A stretch of 64,000 bases of DNA. Source: Cellulosilyticum lentocellum DSM 5427 (GTDB taxonomy: Bacteria > Bacillota > Clostridia > Lachnospirales > Cellulosilyticaceae). The first letter of the stretch is position 1. Every line of letters starts with the position of its first letter. Position numbers and translations under genes: made by a program. The notes under the pieces were generated by a model. It did no database searches, had not been told where the DNA came from, and worked only from the letters and a program-made list of their open reading frames with translations. Where the stretch lies: the NCBI RefSeq assembly GCF_000178835.2, contig NC_015275.1, positions 2,501,001 through 2,565,000 of the forward strand. Direction: 5' to 3'. Below are positions 12,497 to 63,905 of the stretch, piece after piece.

Positions 12497-13975
12497 TTAA
12501 AGAAGGATGCAAATTAAACCGCCATTTCCTTCATTTATAATTTTTTGTAGTGTTTCTTGTAATTTTTGTTGCGCATCTTCTGGCATTCTAAATAGTTTAT
12601 TTTGTAATCCTTCGTTTACTAATTCATGAAGTGATTTTCCAAAAATATTTGATTCCCAAATCTTTGTAGGATCTGTTTCAAACTCACTTAAAATATTATT
12701 AATTAAATCTTCACTTTGTTTTTCTGTTCCAACAATAGGTGCAACTTCGGTTTGAATATTGGCTCGTATAATGTGATAGCTTGGTGCACTAGCCCTTAGT
12801 TTAACACCAAAACGATTACCTTGCTTAATAATTTCTGGTTCTTCTAATTTTAGCTCATCGAATACAGGACTAACTACTCCATAGCCTTTTTCCTTTACTT
12901 CATTCATAGCATAAGCTACCTTATCGTACTCTTTTTTAGTAGTAGCTAATTCTTTAATAAGCTTCATAAGCTCATGATCTCCATGAATTTCCATACCTGT
13001 CGTTTCAGAAAGTACTCTATAAAAGAGTTCTTCCGTTGTATTAATATCGACCTTTACAACGCCTTCTCCTAATTGAATCTTTTCTAAATAGACATTTTTA
13101 ACAAAATCTAAAGCTCTTAATTCATTGGTAGCTTCTTTAATCTGTCTAATATTCTCTACATTTGCAATTTGTTCCTTTACACAATCAATCCATGCTTTTT
13201 TCACCCAATGCTCATTATCTAAGGTTTCTACCCATTTAGGGAGCATGAATTGAATTTCATTAAGTGGGAATTCATATAAGATTTTTTCTAATAATTGATG
13301 AATATCCTCTGTTTTCATTTGGGCAATATCCATTGGTACCACTGGAACATCATATTCTCTTGATAATTTACTGGTAGATTCAATAACTTCTGTATCAAAA
13401 GGTTTCTTCGTATTGTACACTACAATAAAAGGTTTTCCTAAACGCTTCAATTCATTAATGGCACGCTGTTCCCCTTCTATGTAACTATTTCTAGAAATAT
13501 CAGTAAAACTTCCATCTGTAGTCACTACGACACCAATGGTAGAATGATCTGTAATAACCTTTTTAGTGCCAAGTTCTGCTGCTTGTGAAAAAGGAATTTC
13601 TTCTTCAAACCAAGGCGTTTTAACCATACGAGGTGTATTATTATACAGGTGGCCTTCAGCTTCTGGTACAATATAACCTACACAATCAATCATTCGTACT
13701 TTAACTTCAAAATCTCCCCCTATAGTAATACCAATAGCTTCATTTGGTATAAACTTGGGCTCTGTTGTTGTAATAACTTTGCCATCCCCACTTTGAGGTA
13801 ATTCATCTTGTGTACGTTCTTTACTATGCTCATTTTTAATATTAGGGAGTACCAATGTTTCCATAAAACGTTTAATAAAGGTAGATTTTCCTGTTCTAAC
13901 AGGTCCAACTACCCCTATGTATATATCCCCATTTGTCCTTTCAGAAATATCTTTGTAAATATCATAGTATTCCAT
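12497..13975 (-). CDS. spoIVA: Stage IV sporulation protein A (spore coat morphogenetic ATPase)
   Basis: SpoIVA coats the outer forespore membrane, hydrolyses ATP and polymerises into the basement layer of the spore coat. The 492-residue length equals the family norm. The Walker A GPVRTGKST lies at 24-32 and a Walker B-like region (VRMIDCVGYIVPEAEGH) near 110. The conserved extreme C-terminus GNGGLICILL is the forespore-surface anchoring region. AGGAGG precedes the ATG by about 8 nt. The gene is transcribed alone: gpsA ends 84 nt upstream, a sigma-E-like -10 lies in that gap, and a terminator follows the stop codon. This fits mother-cell expression. Confidence 0.96.
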   Translation of the reverse strand: MEYYDIYKDISERTNGDIYIGVVGPVRTGKSTFIKRFMETLVLPNIKNEHSKERTQDELPQSGDGKVITTTEPKFIPNEAIGITIGGDFEVKVRMIDCVGYIVPEAEGHLYNNTPRMVKTPWFEEEIPFSQAAELGTKKVITDHSTIGVVVTTDGSFTDISRNSYIEGEQRAINELKRLGKPFIVVYNTKKPFDTEVIESTSKLSREYDVPVVPMDIAQMKTEDIHQLLEKILYEFPLNEIQFMLPKWVETLDNEHWVKKAWIDCVKEQIANVENIRQIKEATNELRALDFVKNVYLEKIQLGEGVVKVDINTTEELFYRVLSETTGMEIHGDHELMKLIKELATTKKEYDKVAYAMNEVKEKGYGVVSPVFDELKLEEPEIIKQGNRFGVKLRASAPSYHIIRANIQTEVAPIVGTEKQSEDLINNILSEFETDPTKIWESNIFGKSLHELVNEGLQNKLFRMPEDAQQKLQETLQKIINEGNGGLICILL

Positions 13976-13997
13976 ATGAAAGCCTCCTTATATTTTA

Positions 13998-14026
13998 ATT
14001 GTATGGGTACATTAAAATATATTGTA
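13998..14026 (-). promoter_or_regulatory. Sigma-E-type promoter of spoIVA
   Basis: The minus strand has CATACAAT at 13998-14005, a perfect match to the sigma-E -10 box. An ATA-rich -35-like stretch (CAATATATT) lies upstream, but its spacing is a little short of the usual 14 bp. spoIVA belongs to the sigma-E regulon in Bacillus. Confidence 0.6.
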
Positions 14027-14059
14027 CAAAAGGCAGATATATACCACTTTTATTCATTT

Positions 14060-47856: not shown

Positions 47857-48612
47857 TTAACTCATTCTATTAATTTCCTTTTTTAATCTTAATATAATTT
47901 TCTTTTCTAGTCTTGAAATATAAGATTGAGATATTCCCAATAGATCAGCCACTTCTTTTTGTGTCTTTTCTTTTCCTTGAGGCGTAAATCCAAATCTTAA
48001 TTCAACAATCTCCCTTTCACGATCCGTTAACTTAAGTAGTGCTTGTTTAAGTAACTTTTTATCAACTTCTTCTTCAATATTCCGATAAATAATATCAGGT
48101 TCTGTTCCTAATATATCAGAAAGGAGTAACTCATTCCCATCCCAATCTACATTTAAAGGTTCATCGATTGATACTTCTGTTTTAAGCTTATTGGTACGCC
48201 TTAAAAACATTAAAATCTCATTTTCAATACATCTAGAAGCATAAGTTGCCAACTTAATTTTTTTGCAAGGCTTAAAGGTATTAATGGACTTAATAAGACC
48301 AATTGTTCCTATTGAAATTAAATCCTCCATATAAATACCTGTATTTTCAAACTTTCTGGCAATGTACACAACTAGGCGCAAATTTCGCTCAATTAAAGTT
48401 GTTTTTATCGCTTTAATCTCTTCTTCTTGCTCTGCAAATTCTATTAGCTTTTGAATAAGAATTTCTTCTTCATCTCGCGATAAAGGAGGTGGTAACACCT
48501 CACTTCCACCAATATAATGAACTGCTTTTTTCCTTTTTAGCAAAAAGCTATACCACAGCTCCCTCCATTTCTTCTTAACCTTTTTTAATATACTATTAAT
48601 ATACCTAGTCAT
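47857..48612 (-). CDS. sigE: RNA polymerase sigma factor SigE precursor (mother cell)
   Basis: Sigma-E directs early mother-cell transcription. It is made as pro-sigma-E: the first roughly 30 residues are a basic, amphipathic pro-region, and SpoIIGA cleaves near VHYIGG. Region 2 ([20 protein letters not shown], then [17 protein letters not shown]) and region 4 ([20 protein letters not shown]) are intact. Length is 251. The ATG overlaps the spoIIGA stop codon by one base (TAATG), so protease and substrate are translationally coupled. Confidence 0.97.
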
Positions 48613-56391: not shown

Positions 56392-57762
56392 TCACTTCAC
56401 CTTTCTTACTGCTTCTAGCATTTCTTCAAAATGCATCCCTCTAGATGCCTTAAATAAAACGGTATCTTCTGCTTGAAGTTCCCTTTGCATTACTTCAATA
56501 AACGCTTCTTTCGTTGGATAATAAAATGTTGGTGCACCTTCTTGTTCTTTGGCACCCTTAAAAATATATTCTGCTAGAGTCCCTACTGCATAAACTCTAT
56601 CAATCCCTATTTCAGCAGCAAATGCTCCTACCTTTTTATGAAGTTCTGGGGCAAATTCCCCCATTTCAAACATATCACCTAACACTGCTATTTTTCTTCC
56701 CTTTGTATCATAATCTCTAAGTACCTTAAGGGCCGCCTCCATAGAGTCAGGACTAGCATTGTAAGTATCATCAATAACTGTTATTTGATTATCATAAGTT
56801 TCAAGATGCATACGCATTTTTGCTGGTGCATAGCTTTCTAATCCCTTTTGAATTTCAGCCTTACTTAAACCTAAATATTGGGCGACAGCAATAGCAGCCA
56901 GTGTATTATATACCATATGTTCTCCTAATGCCTTAATACGTATGTTGCACTTATACTGCGGTGTTGTCACTATTGCAGTAGTATATTCTCCTTCATTGGC
57001 AATAGCCTCTGCATAATAATCATTACTTGTATTTAAACCGTAAGTCACCTTATTAAAAGGTAATTCACCCACTGTACTTAAAAGGTCATTATCACCATTA
57101 AGTACTAATAAGCCCCCTGGCATCAAACCATCTAATATTTCAAGCTTTGCTTTTAAGATACCTTCTCTACTTCCAAGATTCTCAATATGTGAGGTTCCCA
57201 CATTAGTAATAACTGCCACTTCTGGTGCTGCTGCTAAACTTAATCGATGAATTTCGTCAAAATGATTCATGCCCATTTCGATAACCGCAGCTTCATGTGA
57301 TGCATCCATTTTAAATAAGGTAAGTGGCAAACCTATTTCATTATTGAAATTACCATCCGTCTTATGCACATGCCACTTGCCACTTAAAACAGCTGCAACC
57401 ATCTCTTTTGTACTTGTTTTTCCTACACTACCTGTAATTCCTACAACTGGTACTGTAAATTGATTTCTATAATAATGTCCTAGATCTAGTAACGCTTGTC
57501 TCGTATCCTCTACCTTAATAGTCCATAAACGGGGGTCAATCACTTTATCCTCCATAGTTAAGGTGGCAATTACTCCTTTTTCGTATACACTTTTAATAAA
57601 CTCATGTCCATCAAAGCGATCACCTTTCAGGGGTACAAATAAACCATTTGTTACCTGACTTCTTGAGTCTGTTGTAATCACCTCAATAGGTTGTTTTATT
57701 AAACCTTCTTGAATACATTTGCCTCCTACAGCTGATATAATGTCTTGTATATCTAATTTCAT
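56392..57762 (-). CDS. murF: UDP-MurNAc-tripeptide--D-Ala-D-Ala ligase MurF
   Basis: MurF joins the D-Ala-D-Ala dipeptide, completing the UDP-MurNAc-pentapeptide. The 456-residue protein shows GVTGSVGKTSTKEMVA-type Walker A (VGITGSVGKTSTKEM near 108-122), EMGMNHFDEIHRLS, ITNVGTSHIENLGS and IDDTYNASPDSMEAAL. Its ATG overlaps the end of murE by 4 nt (ATGA type), so the two ligases are translationally coupled. No ddl gene is in the window. Confidence 0.97.
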   Translation of the reverse strand: MKLDIQDIISAVGGKCIQEGLIKQPIEVITTDSRSQVTNGLFVPLKGDRFDGHEFIKSVYEKGVIATLTMEDKVIDPRLWTIKVEDTRQALLDLGHYYRNQFTVPVVGITGSVGKTSTKEMVAAVLSGKWHVHKTDGNFNNEIGLPLTLFKMDASHEAAVIEMGMNHFDEIHRLSLAAAPEVAVITNVGTSHIENLGSREGILKAKLEILDGLMPGGLLVLNGDNDLLSTVGELPFNKVTYGLNTSNDYYAEAIANEGEYTTAIVTTPQYKCNIRIKALGEHMVYNTLAAIAVAQYLGLSKAEIQKGLESYAPAKMRMHLETYDNQITVIDDTYNASPDSMEAALKVLRDYDTKGRKIAVLGDMFEMGEFAPELHKKVGAFAAEIGIDRVYAVGTLAEYIFKGAKEQEGAPTFYYPTKEAFIEVMQRELQAEDTVLFKASRGMHFEEMLEAVRKVK

Positions 57763-59210
57763 TCTATTTCCCCCTGTAGATACGCATTAACAATTTCACT
57801 ATCATCAAAGTGGATAATTCTATCTTTTAAAATTTGATAATTTTCATGACCTTTGCCTGCAATCAGTACAACATCTTCAGCTTTTGCTTCACTTAATGCC
57901 ATTTCAATAGCAGCCTTACGATCTTCAACTTTAACATAATTATCTGTTATTGCCTTAACACCTACTTCTACTTCGTCTAAGATTAGAAGCGGATCTTCAG
58001 TTCTTGGGTTATCAGAGGTAATAAAAACATGATCGGAATAAGTAGCAGCAATTTTTCCCATAATTGGCCTCTTTGTTTTATCACGATCTCCCCCACAGCC
58101 AAATACTGTGATAATATGACCTTGTGCAAATTCTTTTATAGTTGATAAAACATTTTCTAAGCCATCGGGTGTATGCGCATAATCAACTAATACACTATAA
58201 CCTTTGATAGATTTAAAAGCTTGCACCCTGCCAGGAACACCTTTTGCTATTTTTAACGTTGCAAGAATATGTGTCATTGGAATTTCTAATGCACGGGCTG
58301 CTGCAATAACTGCTAATGTATTATAAACAGTAAATTTACCTGGAATAGGCACATCAACCTTAAAGGTTCCCTGGTCACACACTAAAGTATATTCTACACC
58401 TGCAGCAGTTATTATTACATTTGTTGCTTTGTAATCTGCATCCTTGTCAATGGCATACGTTACAAGATTACATGTAGCACCTTTAATAATTTCGTTTATA
58501 TAATCACTATCTTTATTAACAATACCTGTTTCACACATAGTAAAAAGCTTTGCTTTAGCTGCAGCATAATTTTCCATCGTTTGATGAAAATCTAAATGAT
58601 CTTGAGTAAGATTCGTAAATATACCCACTTTAAAATCAGAACCTGCTACACGACTTAATGCTAAAGCATGTGAAGAAACTTCCATTAAAGTTGTGTCTAC
58701 TTGACTTTCTACCATCTTTTTAAATAAAGCTTGTAAATCTAAAGATTCAGGTGTTGTACGCTCAGCTTTTAAAATTTGACTTCCTATACGATTTTCAATC
58801 GTTCCAATAATTCCTATTTTTTTATGATAAGCTTCTAAAATCTGTCCTAATAAAAAAGTAATACTTGTTTTACCATTAGTTCCTGTTACACCTACAAGTT
58901 CAAATTGCTTTGATGGATGTCCATAGGCATTATTCGCTACTAATGCCATAGCTAGCCTTGTATCCTCCACCTTAATGATTGTAACATCTTCTTTTATCTC
59001 TACATCTTTTTGTACTAAAATAGCTTTTGCACCATTTGCAATGGCCGCCTCAATAAATTGATGGCCATCGGTTTTAAATCCCTCTATAGCAATAAATAAT
59101 CCCGCATTTGTCTTGATACGTGAATCATAAATCATATGGTCAACTTCCTGATGTTCGTTACCTTTTACACATACATAATTTAGTCCCGTTAATAGTTTAC
59201 TTAGTTCCAT
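57759..59210 (-). CDS. murE: UDP-MurNAc-L-Ala-D-Glu--meso-diaminopimelate ligase MurE
   Basis: MurE adds the third residue of the stem peptide. The 483-residue protein has ATP loop GVTGTNGKTSITFLLG, TTPESLDLQALF, EVSSHALALSRV and TNLTQDHLDFHQTMENY. The motif DNPR, in FITSDNPRTEDP, marks meso-diaminopimelate as the amino acid, so this organism's wall is DAP-type. AAGGAGGG lies 5 nt before the ATG. It follows spoVD by 62 nt; an extended -10 promoter in that gap can drive murE and the genes beyond independently of spoVD. Confidence 0.97.
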   Translation of the reverse strand: MELSKLLTGLNYVCVKGNEHQEVDHMIYDSRIKTNAGLFIAIEGFKTDGHQFIEAAIANGAKAILVQKDVEIKEDVTIIKVEDTRLAMALVANNAYGHPSKQFELVGVTGTNGKTSITFLLGQILEAYHKKIGIIGTIENRIGSQILKAERTTPESLDLQALFKKMVESQVDTTLMEVSSHALALSRVAGSDFKVGIFTNLTQDHLDFHQTMENYAAAKAKLFTMCETGIVNKDSDYINEIIKGATCNLVTYAIDKDADYKATNVIITAAGVEYTLVCDQGTFKVDVPIPGKFTVYNTLAVIAAARALEIPMTHILATLKIAKGVPGRVQAFKSIKGYSVLVDYAHTPDGLENVLSTIKEFAQGHIITVFGCGGDRDKTKRPIMGKIAATYSDHVFITSDNPRTEDPLLILDEVEVGVKAITDNYVKVEDRKAAIEMALSEAKAEDVVLIAGKGHENYQILKDRIIHFDDSEIVNAYLQGEIE

Positions 59211-59272: not shown

Positions 59273-61222
59273 CTAGTCTGTATAAAGAATAATTTTCGTC
59301 GTTTTGTTAATGACCTCTCCTTCTAAAGGAAATTGATTAACAATTTGACTTCCTTCTCCTTCAATTCGAATCGCAACTCCTTGCTTTTCCGCTAGGCTTT
59401 TTGCTTCTGTAACTTTTATTCCCACAAAAGAAGGTACCATTACTTTCTGAACTTCATCCAACTTCTGTTCTGTCTCTGAATAAGTTGGTTCAACCCCTAA
59501 ATAAGGAAGCGCATTAGATAAAACTTCTTTCATAACAGGTCCTGCAATAGTTCCACCATAATAAGTACCTTGGGGCTCATCAATAATCACCAGTGTCATT
59601 ACCACTGGATTTTCAGCTGGCGCAAAAGCCAGAAAAGAGGCTGTATATTTTCCCGAACCACGGGGTAATTTTTGTGAAGTAGCAGTTTTTCCCCCTATAC
59701 GATAACCAGGAATATACGCTTTCTTACCTCCTCCTTCAGAAACAACGCTCTCTAGGATCTTTTTTAGGCGCTCACTTGTTTCACTCGAGATAATTTGTTC
59801 ACCTTTAGCATATTCAAAGGTTGTCAATACTTCCCCCCTATCATTAACAATCTCTTTACCAAAATGTGGCGTTACTTTATAACCACCATTAACAGCTGCT
59901 GCACCTGCAGATAAAAGTTGCATAGGTGTAATTTGAAAAGATTGCCCAAAAGACATGGTTGCTAATTCTACAGGTCCAATATTACTTTTATTATGTAAGA
60001 TTCCTACTGCTTCCCCAGGCAAATCGATGTTTGTCTTGGATTTGAAGCCAAATTTTATCATATAGTCGTAAAATTTACTAGCACCAACACGTTCTGCCAC
60101 CTCCATAAAAACTGGATTGCATGAATTTTGAACCCCCTGCACAAAATTCTCGGCGCCGTGAGAACGTGGACTGCGCCAACATTTGATGGTTCTTCCAGCT
60201 ACTACTTTACTTCCTGAACAGTTAAATTGACTATTCTCGCTTACCACATTCTCTTCAAGTCCCATGGCTGAAGTAAAAATTTTAAAGGTAGATCCTGGTT
60301 CATAGGTATCATTAATGGTGAAGTTTCTCCACATTTGATTTAAGAATTCTTGCTTTTCTTTTGATGAGTATAAATCCCAATTATTCGCTATACCTTCATT
60401 GTTAATGGTAAAAGGTGCATTAAGGTCAAAGTCTGGTTTTGTAGCTAATGCATAAATTTCTCCATTTTGGGGATTCAACATAATAATAGCCCCTCTTTTA
60501 GCTCCTTTCATCTCCACAGCTTTTTCTATAGCTTGTTCAGCATACTCTTGCAAAGTTAAATCTAGGGTTGTTACAAGGTGATTGCCATTTTCCGGATTAA
60601 TCCTTACCTCAACTTCTTCCTCTCTTCTCTCACCTTTACCATTGGTTTCCATTAAGATTTTTCCTGGAATACCCTTCAGATAACTATCATACTTGACCTC
60701 TAACCCAATAATGCCTTGATTATCTTTTCCTACAAACCCTAATGTCTGCGAAGCTAATGTATGGTAAGGATAATAGCGTTTTGAATCTTCATCTACTTTC
60801 ACACCTGATAAATTCAGGCTACGAATTTCATCTGCCAAACTTTTTTCTACCTTTGTAGCAATACGCATGAAAGCTACTCGCTTTGTCACCTTCTTATAAA
60901 CTTCATCGTAGTCCATATTCAAATGCTCAGATAATACTTTTGCAACACGTTCTGGTTCCGTAATTTGTGCATGTACTACACCAATAGTAGCAACTGAAGC
61001 ACTTTTTGCAAGTACATTTAAATTCCGGTCATAAATATTTCCTCTAGTGGGAGTAATGGCTCTATTTCTCGTTTGCTGTTCATCTGCTAGTTCTTGAAGT
61101 TTTTTTCCTTCTATAACTTGTACATAAGCTAAGCGCACACCCATTCCTAAAAGACCTAATGTAAAGCAAAGCATTATAATCAGCATTCTTCTCTTTAAAG
61201 CAAGAGAAACATCATTTTGCAT
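59273..61222 (-). CDS. spoVD: Sporulation-specific class B penicillin-binding protein SpoVD
   Basis: SpoVD is the transpeptidase for spore cortex peptidoglycan. The 649-residue protein has a membrane helix at about 12-30, a PBP dimerisation domain, then the transpeptidase domain with STFK at 311-314 (nucleophile S311) and SCN at 367-369. The third motif reads KTA at 512-514 rather than KTG. One PASTA domain (about 594-649) ends the protein. It is the shorter, single-PASTA member of a tandem pair with pbpB, matching the Bacillus pbpB-spoVD order. AAAGGAGGAG lies 7 nt before the ATG but inside a hairpin arm; a sigma-E promoter overlaps that hairpin. Confidence 0.92.
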   Translation of the reverse strand: MQNDVSLALKRRMLIIMLCFTLGLLGMGVRLAYVQVIEGKKLQELADEQQTRNRAITPTRGNIYDRNLNVLAKSASVATIGVVHAQITEPERVAKVLSEHLNMDYDEVYKKVTKRVAFMRIATKVEKSLADEIRSLNLSGVKVDEDSKRYYPYHTLASQTLGFVGKDNQGIIGLEVKYDSYLKGIPGKILMETNGKGERREEEVEVRINPENGNHLVTTLDLTLQEYAEQAIEKAVEMKGAKRGAIIMLNPQNGEIYALATKPDFDLNAPFTINNEGIANNWDLYSSKEKQEFLNQMWRNFTINDTYEPGSTFKIFTSAMGLEENVVSENSQFNCSGSKVVAGRTIKCWRSPRSHGAENFVQGVQNSCNPVFMEVAERVGASKFYDYMIKFGFKSKTNIDLPGEAVGILHNKSNIGPVELATMSFGQSFQITPMQLLSAGAAAVNGGYKVTPHFGKEIVNDRGEVLTTFEYAKGEQIISSETSERLKKILESVVSEGGGKKAYIPGYRIGGKTATSQKLPRGSGKYTASFLAFAPAENPVVMTLVIIDEPQGTYYGGTIAGPVMKEVLSNALPYLGVEPTYSETEQKLDEVQKVMVPSFVGIKVTEAKSLAEKQGVAIRIEGEGSQIVNQFPLEGEVINKTTKIILYTD

Positions 61223-61229
61223 AGAAAAA

Positions 61230-61277
61230 CTCCTCCTTTAAAAGTTGTCTTACCTAAAGTGTATTTTAAAGGAGGAG
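61230..61277 (-). promoter_or_regulatory. Hairpin masking the spoVD ribosome site; also terminator-like
   Basis: CTCCTCCTTTAAAA (61230-61243) and TTTTAAAGGAGGAG (61264-61277) are perfect 14-bp inverted arms with a 20-nt loop. On the minus strand the second arm to be transcribed contains the spoVD ribosome site AAAGGAGGAG, directly followed by TTTTTCT and the ATG. The hairpin starts 11 nt after the pbpB stop codon. It could terminate pbpB RNA, or block spoVD translation on read-through RNA. Confidence 0.75.
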
Positions 61278-61287
61278 GCATTATGCC
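61258..61287 (-). promoter_or_regulatory. Sigma-E-type promoter of spoVD
   Basis: On the minus strand GGCATAAT (61280-61287), a 14-bp spacer and AATACACT (61258-61265) match the sigma-E pattern (GKCATATT; CATACAnT) with one mismatch in each box. The predicted start, about 7 nt on (near 61251), falls in the loop of the hairpin at 61230-61277. Confidence 0.65.
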
Positions 61288-61288
61288 A

Positions 61289-63454
61289 TTATTCAGTTGT
61301 TTTTACGATAATCTTATTATTTTTTTCTATTTTTGTACCAGCTTTTGGCATTTGACTCGATATACTTCCTGAGATAGCACCTTCAATTACAAATTTACCT
61401 TCTACTAATGTCTGTGCTTCTTCTATTGTTTTTCCTATCAAATCTGGAACCTCTTCTATTTGATCCATTTGGTTAGTTTTTAAATAAAGTTTTACACTTC
61501 CACCTTTATTCCATAAAGCCTGAGCCTTTGGTGCTTGATCTATAACCTCACTACCTACACCAACAAACTCATAGTCTAACTCATTTTGCTTAAGAATCTC
61601 TACCGCTTCATAAATATTTTTATTAGAAACATCAGGTACTACACTTACTGTACTTGCTGCATTCTCAGCGCTAACATTCAACTCAATATCTAAATAAGGT
61701 AAAATATTTTCCATCATTTCTTTAAAAGCAGCTGAAGGAGCACCTGTTTTATCAGGTAAACCATCAAAAACAACTAATCCTACAACTTCAGGTTTACTGA
61801 TAGGTGCAGCTCCAATAAAGGAAACAACATATTCATCTTCTGGACGCTCTAACTTGCCGTCAACATTCACCCGCTTTTCACCAGTTCCTGTTTTCCCACC
61901 AATATCATACCCTGAAATAGCCGCTGCTGTACCAGTTCCATCCTCTACTACCTTTTTCAAATAGCTCGTCACAAGAGTAGAAATCTCAGAAGAAATAACC
62001 GGACGACGTACTGCTTTTTTCTGATTAAGAAGTTCTTCACCGTCTTCATTTATAATATTAGAAACTACATAGGGTTCCATAAGATACCCACCATTAACGA
62101 CTGCTGAAAAAGCTGTAATAAGTTGCAACGGCGTAACTGTCAGGTTTTGCCCCATTGAATAAGTTGCTTTATCCACAACATTTAATTTCTTGCCTAGTAA
62201 GCCAACTTCTTCTCCAGCTAACTCAATACCTGTCTCCTCGCCAAAACCAAAGCGCTTAATATACTCTAAGAAAACATCATTATCCATACCGCTAGTAAGC
62301 TCCATCATTCCCACATTACAAGAGTTGGCTATTACCTCTTCCAAAGTTTGTACACCATGTCCACCAGTTTTCCAACAACTAATTCTTGTATCTGCTACAA
62401 CCTTATATCCTGGACAATTGTAGGTTTCATCCCCTTTAATAACACCTTCTTCTAATGCCATTGCCATAATAATGGGTTTCATAGTAGAACCGGGTTCATA
62501 CATATATTGCATGGTATGATTTTTCCACGCCTCTAAAAGCTTTTCTGTTTGTTTATCTAAAGACAACCCTTTCCAAGTACTGGCTCCTAATTGTTCACTT
62601 AAATCATTATATGTATTCGGATTATAACTAGGATAGGAATACATACTATAAACCTCACCTGTATTAGGATTCATTATGATTGCAGATGCATTAATGGGAT
62701 TATACTGCTCAATATATTTTTCCATAGTTGTAGTTACATATTGTTGAATCACTTCATCCAAAGTTAAGGTAATCGTACTTCCCGCTTCTGCATCTTGTAA
62801 TTGTCTTGTGATAATTTTAGAACCTTCCATCTGTGAAAATTCTCTACCTGGCTTACCTGCCAAATAGGATTCATACTGTTGTTCTATACCGTATTTTCCT
62901 TCTTCATTTTTATTAAAATAGCCTAATACTTGTGCAGCCAACTCACCTGCTGGATACTTTCTTACATAAGTTCTATCTAATGCTACTCCTCCCAAACCTT
63001 TAAGAGGCTCTGCTTTTTCAGTAGATATTCTTTTAGCTAGAATATAATATTTTGAATTAGATCTTTCATTAACGATGTTTCTTATTTCATCGACTGTTTT
63101 GTCTACCTGTTTAGCTAATGTAGCATATAATTTTTCTTGTTGTTCTTCTTTAAGCGTTAGAATATCTTTAGGGCTTAAAATAACATTATACGCCAAAACA
63201 CTTGTAGCCAATGTCTTATGATTTCGATCTACAATATCACCACGCTGAGCTGCTATAATAGATTCACTTCTGGTCATATTACTTAAAGCACCCTTGGTAT
63301 ATTCTTCCCCTTTAAAGATTTTAATACTTGTTACTTGCCAACCTAGAAATAAAAAAACACCAAAGAAGCATATATTCAAAATAACAATACGCCTGTTCAG
63401 GTGTTTTCTAGTCACTAGGTTATGCTTTTTCTTTGCTCTTGTCCGTTTTTTCAT
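61289..63454 (-). CDS. pbpB: Division-specific class B penicillin-binding protein (PBP 2B type)
   Basis: PbpB cross-links septal peptidoglycan with FtsW. I chose the ATG at 63454 (721 residues), with AGTAGG upstream; a TTG at 63511 would overlap ftsL and lacks a ribosome site. A very basic tail precedes one membrane helix (about 22-40). The transpeptidase domain has STMK (S323), SCN (378-380) and KTG (521-523). Two PASTA domains fill the C-terminus (about 605-660 and 665-721). It follows ftsL by 16 nt. The two PASTA units and position distinguish it from spoVD. Confidence 0.92.
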   Translation of the reverse strand: MKKRTRAKKKHNLVTRKHLNRRIVILNICFFGVFLFLGWQVTSIKIFKGEEYTKGALSNMTRSESIIAAQRGDIVDRNHKTLATSVLAYNVILSPKDILTLKEEQQEKLYATLAKQVDKTVDEIRNIVNERSNSKYYILAKRISTEKAEPLKGLGGVALDRTYVRKYPAGELAAQVLGYFNKNEEGKYGIEQQYESYLAGKPGREFSQMEGSKIITRQLQDAEAGSTITLTLDEVIQQYVTTTMEKYIEQYNPINASAIIMNPNTGEVYSMYSYPSYNPNTYNDLSEQLGASTWKGLSLDKQTEKLLEAWKNHTMQYMYEPGSTMKPIIMAMALEEGVIKGDETYNCPGYKVVADTRISCWKTGGHGVQTLEEVIANSCNVGMMELTSGMDNDVFLEYIKRFGFGEETGIELAGEEVGLLGKKLNVVDKATYSMGQNLTVTPLQLITAFSAVVNGGYLMEPYVVSNIINEDGEELLNQKKAVRRPVISSEISTLVTSYLKKVVEDGTGTAAAISGYDIGGKTGTGEKRVNVDGKLERPEDEYVVSFIGAAPISKPEVVGLVVFDGLPDKTGAPSAAFKEMMENILPYLDIELNVSAENAASTVSVVPDVSNKNIYEAVEILKQNELDYEFVGVGSEVIDQAPKAQALWNKGGSVKLYLKTNQMDQIEEVPDLIGKTIEEAQTLVEGKFVIEGAISGSISSQMPKAGTKIEKNNKIIVKTTE

Positions 63455-63470
63455 CTTTTTACCTACTTCT

Positions 63471-63905
63471 TTACTTCTCGTATGAGGTATAACTCTCTTC
63501 TGATAACTCAATATAAACGATTTGATGTGGTAAAGGCTCTCTCATACCAAGTTCATTTGCTGCACGTTCACGTATATAATCTAAGTTAAGCTTTTCTGAT
63601 ATCGTCGCTTGTGTTTCACTAATAGCACTTTTTACTGCTATCATATTATTTTTTAATTCAATCAGTTGACCTTGTTTGGCGCGAAGCGAAGCATAACTAT
63701 TAATATAAAGAAAGGCACTTGTAAATAAAACAACACCACAAAAAGAAAGTTGCATACCAAAAGCAATATCTAATTTTTTCTTTTGAGCTTTTCTTGGACG
63801 TTTTAATGGCTCAGTACTTGGTACAGGACTAATAATCGGCTGTTCATAAGCCCGTGCTGTACTATCATACTGGTAATTATACCCCTTCTTAAACTCCTTT
63901 GCCAT
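63471..63905 (-). CDS. ftsL: Cell-division protein FtsL
   Basis: FtsL is a small bitopic divisome protein that partners with FtsQ/DivIB and DivIC and activates FtsW-PbpB. The 144-residue protein has a 45-residue basic cytoplasmic tail, one membrane helix (about 49-67), then a leucine-zipper-like coiled coil (SLRAKQGQLIELKNNMIAV) and an external tail. Sequence conservation in this family is low; the call rests on topology and on the rsmH-ftsL-pbpB order. GGAGGGG lies about 7 nt before the ATG. Confidence 0.88.
   Translation of the reverse strand: MAKEFKKGYNYQYDSTARAYEQPIISPVPSTEPLKRPRKAQKKKLDIAFGMQLSFCGVVLFTSAFLYINSYASLRAKQGQLIELKNNMIAVKSAISETQATISEKLNLDYIRERAANELGMREPLPHQIVYIELSEESYTSYEK

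Follow-up and report, generated by a model that had tools for sequence, protein, structure and literature searches.

The gap between a PBP gene, pbpB, and the sporulation gene spoVD of Cellulosilyticum lentocellum DSM 5427 encodes a 14-bp hairpin that, judging by folding models and comparison of related genomes, probably functions as a read-through silencer for spoVD. The spoVD Shine-Dalgarno sequence (SD) lies in the 3' arm of the hairpin, and the 5' arm is nested in a sigma-E-like promoter. This anatomy is conserved in many relatives with sequence changes on both sides of the stem, and it is associated with a PBP gene upstream.

All coordinates refer to the window, i.e. the whole 64,000-nucleotide stretch of DNA that was analysed, and the three genes concerned lie on its minus strand. 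The best NCBIfam match of spoVD (59273-61222) is TIGR02214 (6.9e-189, 629 bits; cut-off 688), while murE (57759-59210) matches NF001126 with 616 bits, over the cut-off of 373. The gene preceding spoVD (61289-63511) belongs to the class B PBP families, but its matches to TIGR03423 (9.7e-99) and TIGR02214 (8.2e-143) are both under the curated cut-offs, and the name pbpB is thus given by position and type. Read directly on the minus strand, the gap runs from the pbpB stop codon TAA (61291-61289) through GCATAAT, a 14-nt spacer, AATACACT, a loop, TTTTAAAGGAGGAG and TTTTTCT to the spoVD ATG (61222-61220). The hairpin arms, CTCCTCCTTTAAAA (61277-61264) and TTTTAAAGGAGGAG (61243-61230), are perfectly complementary over 14 bp and enclose a loop of 20 nt, and the stem begins 11 nt after the stop codon. 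Its base, CTCCTCC/GGAGGAG, consists of five G-C and two A-U pairs and is followed by the TTTTTCT run (61229-61223), a possible terminator tail. An earlier sequence-only reading of this DNA had described a perfect inverted repeat behind pbpB, with the spoVD ribosome site as its second arm and TTTTTCT before the ATG, and all three elements are in place; the SD, AAAGGAGGAG, falls within the 3' arm, as sequence, fold, duplex score and covariation agree. Rfam covariance models gave no match in positions 61000-61500 up to an E-value of 1.

The gap further carries a sequence with the features of a sigma-E promoter: ATA in the -35 element, an N16 interval and a -10 element like CATATATA. The candidate promoter consists of GCATAAT (61286-61280), 14 nt and AATACACT (61265-61258). 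Written as GC-ATA-N16-AATACACT, it has the same geometry as the sigma-E promoter of Clostridioides difficile spoIIID, ATA-N16-CATATATA, for which a mapped start is reported (PMC3789822). It ranked first among 268 gene starts by a score whose weights were taken from a sigma-E consensus and whose threshold is lenient, 72 of the 268 control starts passing it. The 5' arm of the hairpin, referred to here as the anti-SD arm, lies in the promoter spacer and reaches two bases into the -10 element. Going by the position of the -10 element, the transcript is predicted to start at about 61251, within the hairpin loop and 29 nt before the ATG; at the level of sequence, this agrees with the promoter and start proposed in the earlier reading. 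A SigE gene scoring over the curated cut-off is present in the genome (window positions ~47863-48570). A near-perfect form of the promoter pattern occurs at 13 sites genome-wide, compared to 11 for the reversed pattern, and at the sites other than spoVD no SD in a stem was found when judged by eye. The promoters noted in the available part of an Epulopiscium survey include sigma-E promoters for several genes, spoVD not being among those noted there (PMC3416734).

RNA covering positions 61219-61291 folds with -21.5 kcal/mol (z -3.8), a value reached by none of 200 shuffled sequences, and a wider 101-nt RNA around the gap gave a z of -2.6, with 3 of 200 shuffles equal or better. The predicted sigma-E RNA starting at 61251 has an open centroid structure; its best fold (-5.2 kcal/mol, z +1.0) is weaker than the shuffled mean and leaves the SD weakly paired with downstream bases. 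The probability of the SD being unpaired is 0.013 in the long RNA and 0.27 in the predicted sigma-E RNA. Pairing of the SD region (-25 to -4) with the sequence upstream (-80 to -27) was also scored against dinucleotide shuffles, 200 for spoVD starts across the order and 100 for control starts, the latter being 268 gene starts sampled over 464 kb of the genome, with spoVD among them; SD strength was one criterion for picking start codons in cases and controls alike. With -20.7 kcal/mol, the spoVD duplex was the strongest of the 268 sampled starts, which argues that the hairpin is not a product of chance. Among these starts, spoVD included, 10 reached p ≤ 0.01 and 12 reached -15 kcal/mol or less. 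In the same sample, an SDR gene, a phage integrase gene and a thiamine transporter gene are also preceded by strong SD hairpins.

The element recurs in related genomes. The order-wide set comprised 106 spoVD loci, one per genome, 96 of them from the 120 matching genomes and 10 from further searches; it excludes 23 weaker or truncated matches, one match beginning at residue 34, and the genomes G024, G027 and G031. A second set of 80 named loci, possibly overlapping with the 106, was used in part: 56 were viewed (one without a start) and 36, mostly of Lachnospiraceae type, were tested. Of the 106 order-wide starts, 47 reached p ≤ 0.01 and 48 had a duplex of -15 kcal/mol or less (hereafter strong-duplex loci). 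For the next start after spoVD, murE-like by position, the corresponding numbers were 1 and 0 of 35. Carriers of the stem with the nested promoter include Niameybacter massiliensis, Anaerotignum lactatifermentans, Dorea sp. D27, Mediterraneibacter glycyrrhizinilyticus, Merdimonas faecis and a Blautia species. The strong duplex is absent from 58 of the 106 genomes, in 30 of which spoVD nevertheless follows a PBP gene, and the element is thus dispensable. One genome of the same genus (G005) has a duplex of only -9.1 kcal/mol (p 0.37).

A 14-nt spacer separates the two elements of the best sigma-E-like match in nearly all strong-duplex loci, and transcription is predicted to start downstream of the 5' arm in 47 of the 48, in line with the earlier proposal that mother-cell RNA lacks the first arm. 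The arrangement was counted as nested where the duplex was -15 kcal/mol or less, the sigma-E score was at least 16, the 5' arm lay between the -35 element and the start, and the start did not lie beyond the top of the 3' arm. By this definition, 44 of the 106 order loci and 13 of the 36 named loci are nested; among the control starts the only instance was spoVD itself (1/268; 0/267 others). Outside the order, 69 genomes matched at class level and 67 at phylum level, yielding 27 class-level loci and 30 phylum-level loci, 28 of the latter with usable starts; a B. subtilis locus was not in the phylum-level set, and some of these matches may not be spoVD. Strong duplexes were found in 3/27 and 7/28 of them and the nested arrangement in 0/27 and 0/28, respectively, but sigma-E-like sites were present in only 5/27 and 0/28, so this comparison is weak and says little about the hairpin.

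The spoIVA gene (window positions 12497-13975), which in this genome follows genes of the der, plsY and gpsA types by Pfam, was considered as a second case. Its duplex here is -14.3 kcal/mol, but only 2 of the 30 loci fetched reached p ≤ 0.01. In three of the 30 the start codon was not at the assumed place, and the nested arrangement was present in 0 of 27 despite a sigma-E-like site in 26 of them. The arrangement is thus not extended to other sigma-E genes.

The paired letters of the 5' arm differ between families (labelled, like the genus g71, with numbers in place of taxon names): CTCCTCCTTTAAAA in f1, CCCCCATTATTGC in f24, ACACCCCTGTTTTTTCCAT, TTACAGCTCCAATAAATATTA or GCACTCTGCTTTTTCAAT in f17, CCTTGCGGCAT in f11, and CCTCACAGAAG or CCCTGCAGAAG in the Dorea and Mediterraneibacter loci. 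Across 19 family sequences, 93.5% of the cells are paired. Compensatory changes between related genomes, which the sequence-only reading had suggested looking for, do occur: 7 of the 14 pairs show two-sided changes, a number reached by 5 of 500 shuffles, and the covariation score was 0.290 compared to 0.147 for shuffled data (reached by 0/500; slid controls all lower), the shuffles ignoring relatedness although related genomes are not independent. In the MAFFT alignment (A3), a few divergent rows are misregistered, and one row (L010) extends past the start codon. At one position, U-G replaces C-G in five sequences, as would be expected if pairing is kept in RNA. When arms were exchanged between families, using one locus from each of 62 genera, the native arms were best in both directions in 22 genera, and values at or below 0.05 both ways were obtained in 24. 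The outcome varied by family, with success in 8/9 genera of f1, 4/4 of f24, 7/10 of f17 and 1/7 of f11, and none in f4 (0/10) or f16 (0/4). The two-sided changes together with the arm swaps indicate that the spoVD stem has been shaped by selection for pairing at the RNA level.

Folding of both RNA forms, likewise proposed in the sequence-only reading, was carried out across the order. In the 48 strong-duplex loci the SD is predicted to be largely paired in the long RNA (median unpaired 0.01) and freer in the sigma-E RNA (0.43), while the medians for the other 58 loci, 51 of them with a usable start, were 0.27 and 0.40. The ratio of SD freedom between the two forms exceeded 5 in 33/48 strong-duplex loci and 12/51 others. 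Exceptions are four f11 loci, where the SD window is 44-63% unpaired in the long RNA, and loci L063 and L104, whose short RNA likewise has a paired SD. Using a profile built in this analysis, a same-strand PBP gene was detected upstream of 43/48 strong-duplex loci and 30/58 others (Fisher p 2e-5, not corrected for relatedness), which fits the earlier suggestion that the element insulates a sporulation gene from the division gene before it.

An intrinsic terminator, or a structure stabilising the 3' end of the pbpB transcript, could have much the same appearance, with the SD overlap reflecting compactness only, and as the main function of the hairpin this is possible, albeit clearly less likely than silencing. 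A U run directly follows the stem here, and a T run of at least four precedes the start in 27/48 strong-duplex loci and 14/16 strong named loci, compared to 13/268 control starts. Stand-alone terminator-like hairpins upstream are likewise more frequent where the strong duplex is lacking (14/58 versus 2/48). A generic terminator scan, restricted to loops of 3-8 nt, did not list the present hairpin with its 20-nt loop. However, the U run is missing in f24 (6/6 strong-duplex loci) and in f11-g71 (4/4) with pairing retained in both, T runs also occur without the duplex (10/58 loci, four of them f1), and in four loci the stem remains at the SD even though the PBP stop codon is 100-280 nt away. SD masking therefore appears to be the shared function, with termination probably added to it in certain lineages, among them the present one. 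The sequence-only reading had held that RNA arriving from pbpB either ends at the hairpin or folds so that ribosomes cannot load; the second half fits the conserved stem and the predicted pairing of the SD, while the first half would apply in a lineage-dependent manner.

Translational coupling classically uses stems that mask an SD right behind a stop codon, and the 11 nt between stop codon and stem at this locus would suit a mechanism in which ribosomes finishing pbpB open the stem and spoVD is made along with pbpB. Over 43 loci, however, the distance from stop codon to 5' arm spans -3 to 280 nt, which is too loose for coupling, speaks likewise against a role solely at the 3' end of the pbpB transcript, and indicates that the stem keeps to the promoter and the SD, not to the place where the PBP gene ends. 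Moreover, RNA from the sigma-E-like promoter inside the element would have no upstream frame to couple to, and coupling is therefore an improbable explanation.

It is still less probable that the dyad is a DNA-binding site for a repressor, SpoIIID or another protein and not an RNA structure. A putative SpoIIID site, TAAGACAACT (61243-61252), does lie at the predicted start, as identified with the SpoIIID consensus WWRRACARNY. Such sites occur at the predicted start in 12/106 loci, all f1, and anywhere in the 75 nt upstream in 16/106 loci compared to 21/268 controls. In B. subtilis, spoVD is reported to be a SpoIIID target, being controlled by sigma-E and repressed by SpoIIID (PMC517825). Against this, the dyad does not include the SpoIIID-like site, which is located in the loop, and the dyad varies in sequence by family while complementarity, including U-G pairs, is maintained. 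That the complementarity to a conserved, purine-rich SD arose by chance is hardly credible given the order-wide rates at spoVD compared to control, murE-like and spoIVA starts, the arm swaps and the two-sided changes, even though SDs are short and alike, CU-rich stretches upstream pair with them readily, and the control starts are not free of such duplexes.

The silencing reading suggests the following model. RNA of the division cluster that starts upstream of pbpB during growth would carry both arms, and the anti-SD arm would pair with the SD and prevent ribosomes from starting on spoVD; where a U run follows the stem, part of this read-through RNA may in addition be terminated there. A point against such silencing is that helicases and ribosomes might unwind the stem. 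In the mother cell, RNA polymerase with sigma-E would use the promoter with the anti-SD arm encoded in its 14-nt spacer, and the transcript, presumably beginning in the loop, would lack the 5' arm and leave the SD open for translation of spoVD. Growing cells might benefit from being free of SpoVD. The murE gene would be transcribed anew from its own extended -10 promoter, which the earlier reading had placed before it and which is found at 59247-59239 (TGCTATAAT). A motif of the form TGNTA[ACT]AAT is present within 170 nt of the spoVD stop codon in 27 of 38 loci, including 20/22 of f1 and 6/6 of f24, in a count made with no shuffled control and with the next gene taken as murE without locus-by-locus identification. 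The recurrence of the motif fits a fresh start of murE transcription after an insulated spoVD. We lean slightly towards a broader interpretation in which the gap is a composite element of ~60 nt that has undergone compensatory evolution across much of the order, where the sigma-E promoter spacer encodes the anti-SD and the sigma factor that starts the RNA decides whether a sporulation gene embedded in an operon essential for growth is translated; since a U run closes the stem in many lineages, the promoter, the terminator and the ribosome site would there occupy the same DNA.

Bacteriophage T4 and the C. lentocellum chromosome are very different settings, yet the principle is similar. Sealed early read-through RNA and free late RNA are reported for T4 gene e (lysozyme) as well as for I-TevI, soc and 49 (PMC3014915). 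As proposed for spoVD, the SD of gene e is masked in the long RNA, while RNA from late promoters directly upstream of the gene, located in the region encoding the 5' strand of the structure, lacks that part and is translated well. The T4 case relies on a phage late promoter and lytic timing, whereas spoVD is a mother-cell gene between two growth genes in a chromosomal operon, with a sporulation sigma factor, an anti-SD arm in the promoter spacer and often a U run after the stem. B. subtilis sigG is closer in biology, in that a hairpin of more than 20 pairs, unable to form in PsigG RNA, has been proposed to block translation of spoIIG read-through RNA (PMC5942855). Here too an endospore former has a sporulation gene behind another unit and a promoter-specific loss of one arm, but the sigma factor is that of the forespore, the gene is another and the mechanism is a proposed one. 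In the present genome, one 161-nt stretch before sigG folds with -29.3 kcal/mol, a value obtained without a shuffle control.

The gene order of B. subtilis is the same, with the sigma-E gene spoVD between pbpB and murE, and both pbpB-spoVD and spoVD-murE are given there as non-operon pairs (PMC1808063). C. difficile spoVD has an orthologous role in cortex synthesis but seems to be handled differently, as its promoter appears upstream of an FtsL-like gene (PMC8417463) and the gene is listed among SigH genes (PMC7438776). A literature search covering titles and the beginnings of abstracts, with few subscription papers and excluding the original B. subtilis spoVD papers, gave no account of an SD hairpin at spoVD. 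The earlier statement that no description of this arrangement was known is too strong, since T4 gene e, I-TevI and, as proposed, B. subtilis sigG work alike. What looks new is the gene and its setting, the location of the anti-SD arm in a promoter spacer, and the compensatory evolution across several families.

The position of spoVD amid division and cell-wall genes whose transcription is indispensable during growth gives the element its potential significance. A cell-type gate built on RNA geometry would explain how spoVD can stay in the cluster and yet not be made during growth, and why the promoter spacer has evolved in step with the ribosome site. Promoter spacers are usually considered free sequence, and the element described here suggests that they can carry an RNA function.

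The predicted helix at spoVD extends beyond the Shine-Dalgarno (SD) hairpin: the -35 element GCATA (window 61280-61286, minus strand) is complementary to TATGC in the start region (61220-61224, minus strand), and RNA folding predicts that their pairing lengthens the helix across the AUG. By eye, the pairing is retained in several genomes of the same genus and not kept in genus g9. In two loci of genus g8 (L051 and L053, family f1), spoVD has lost the SD hairpin; its upstream region instead carries a distinct CTGCTGC/GCAGCAG stem that lacks a clear T run.

A hairpin resembling that of spoVD in form precedes an SDR-family gene of the C. lentocellum genome (locus L181, 6895-6935, within 4600001-4620000, plus strand), where the arms of the SD hairpin, ATCACTTCTTCC/GGAAGGAGTGAT, are followed by TTTTTT and then ATG (duplex energy -20.5 kcal/mol). 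Before a gene judged by eye to be recG-like (locus L190, 1501-1575, contig position 2001862 onward, plus strand), a sigma-E-like promoter, GCATAAA-14-CATACAAT, lies within a strong predicted hairpin (AGGCAA.TCCATACA/TGTGTGGA.TTGCCT; -23.5 kcal/mol over 75 nt) with TTTTTT 3' of it. This stem is terminator-like and one of its arms holds the promoter spacer; the SD, however, is left free. Different from the spoVD element is a TTTAAATGTACCCATACATTTAAA-like dyad (window 13976-14059, minus strand) a short way ahead of the spoIVA SD, repeated in many f1 genomes, including many of the spoIVA loci L309-L330.

The predicted sigma-E start of spoVD coincides with a SpoIIID-like site (window 61243-61252, minus strand) that fits the SpoIIID consensus WWRRACARNY. 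Eleven other f1 spoVD loci carry a SpoIIID-like site at the same position; the sequence is TAAGACAACT or TAAGACAAGT. Such a site would explain the conserved loop of the hairpin, and suggests that SpoIIID switches off spoVD, a role like the one it has in B. subtilis.
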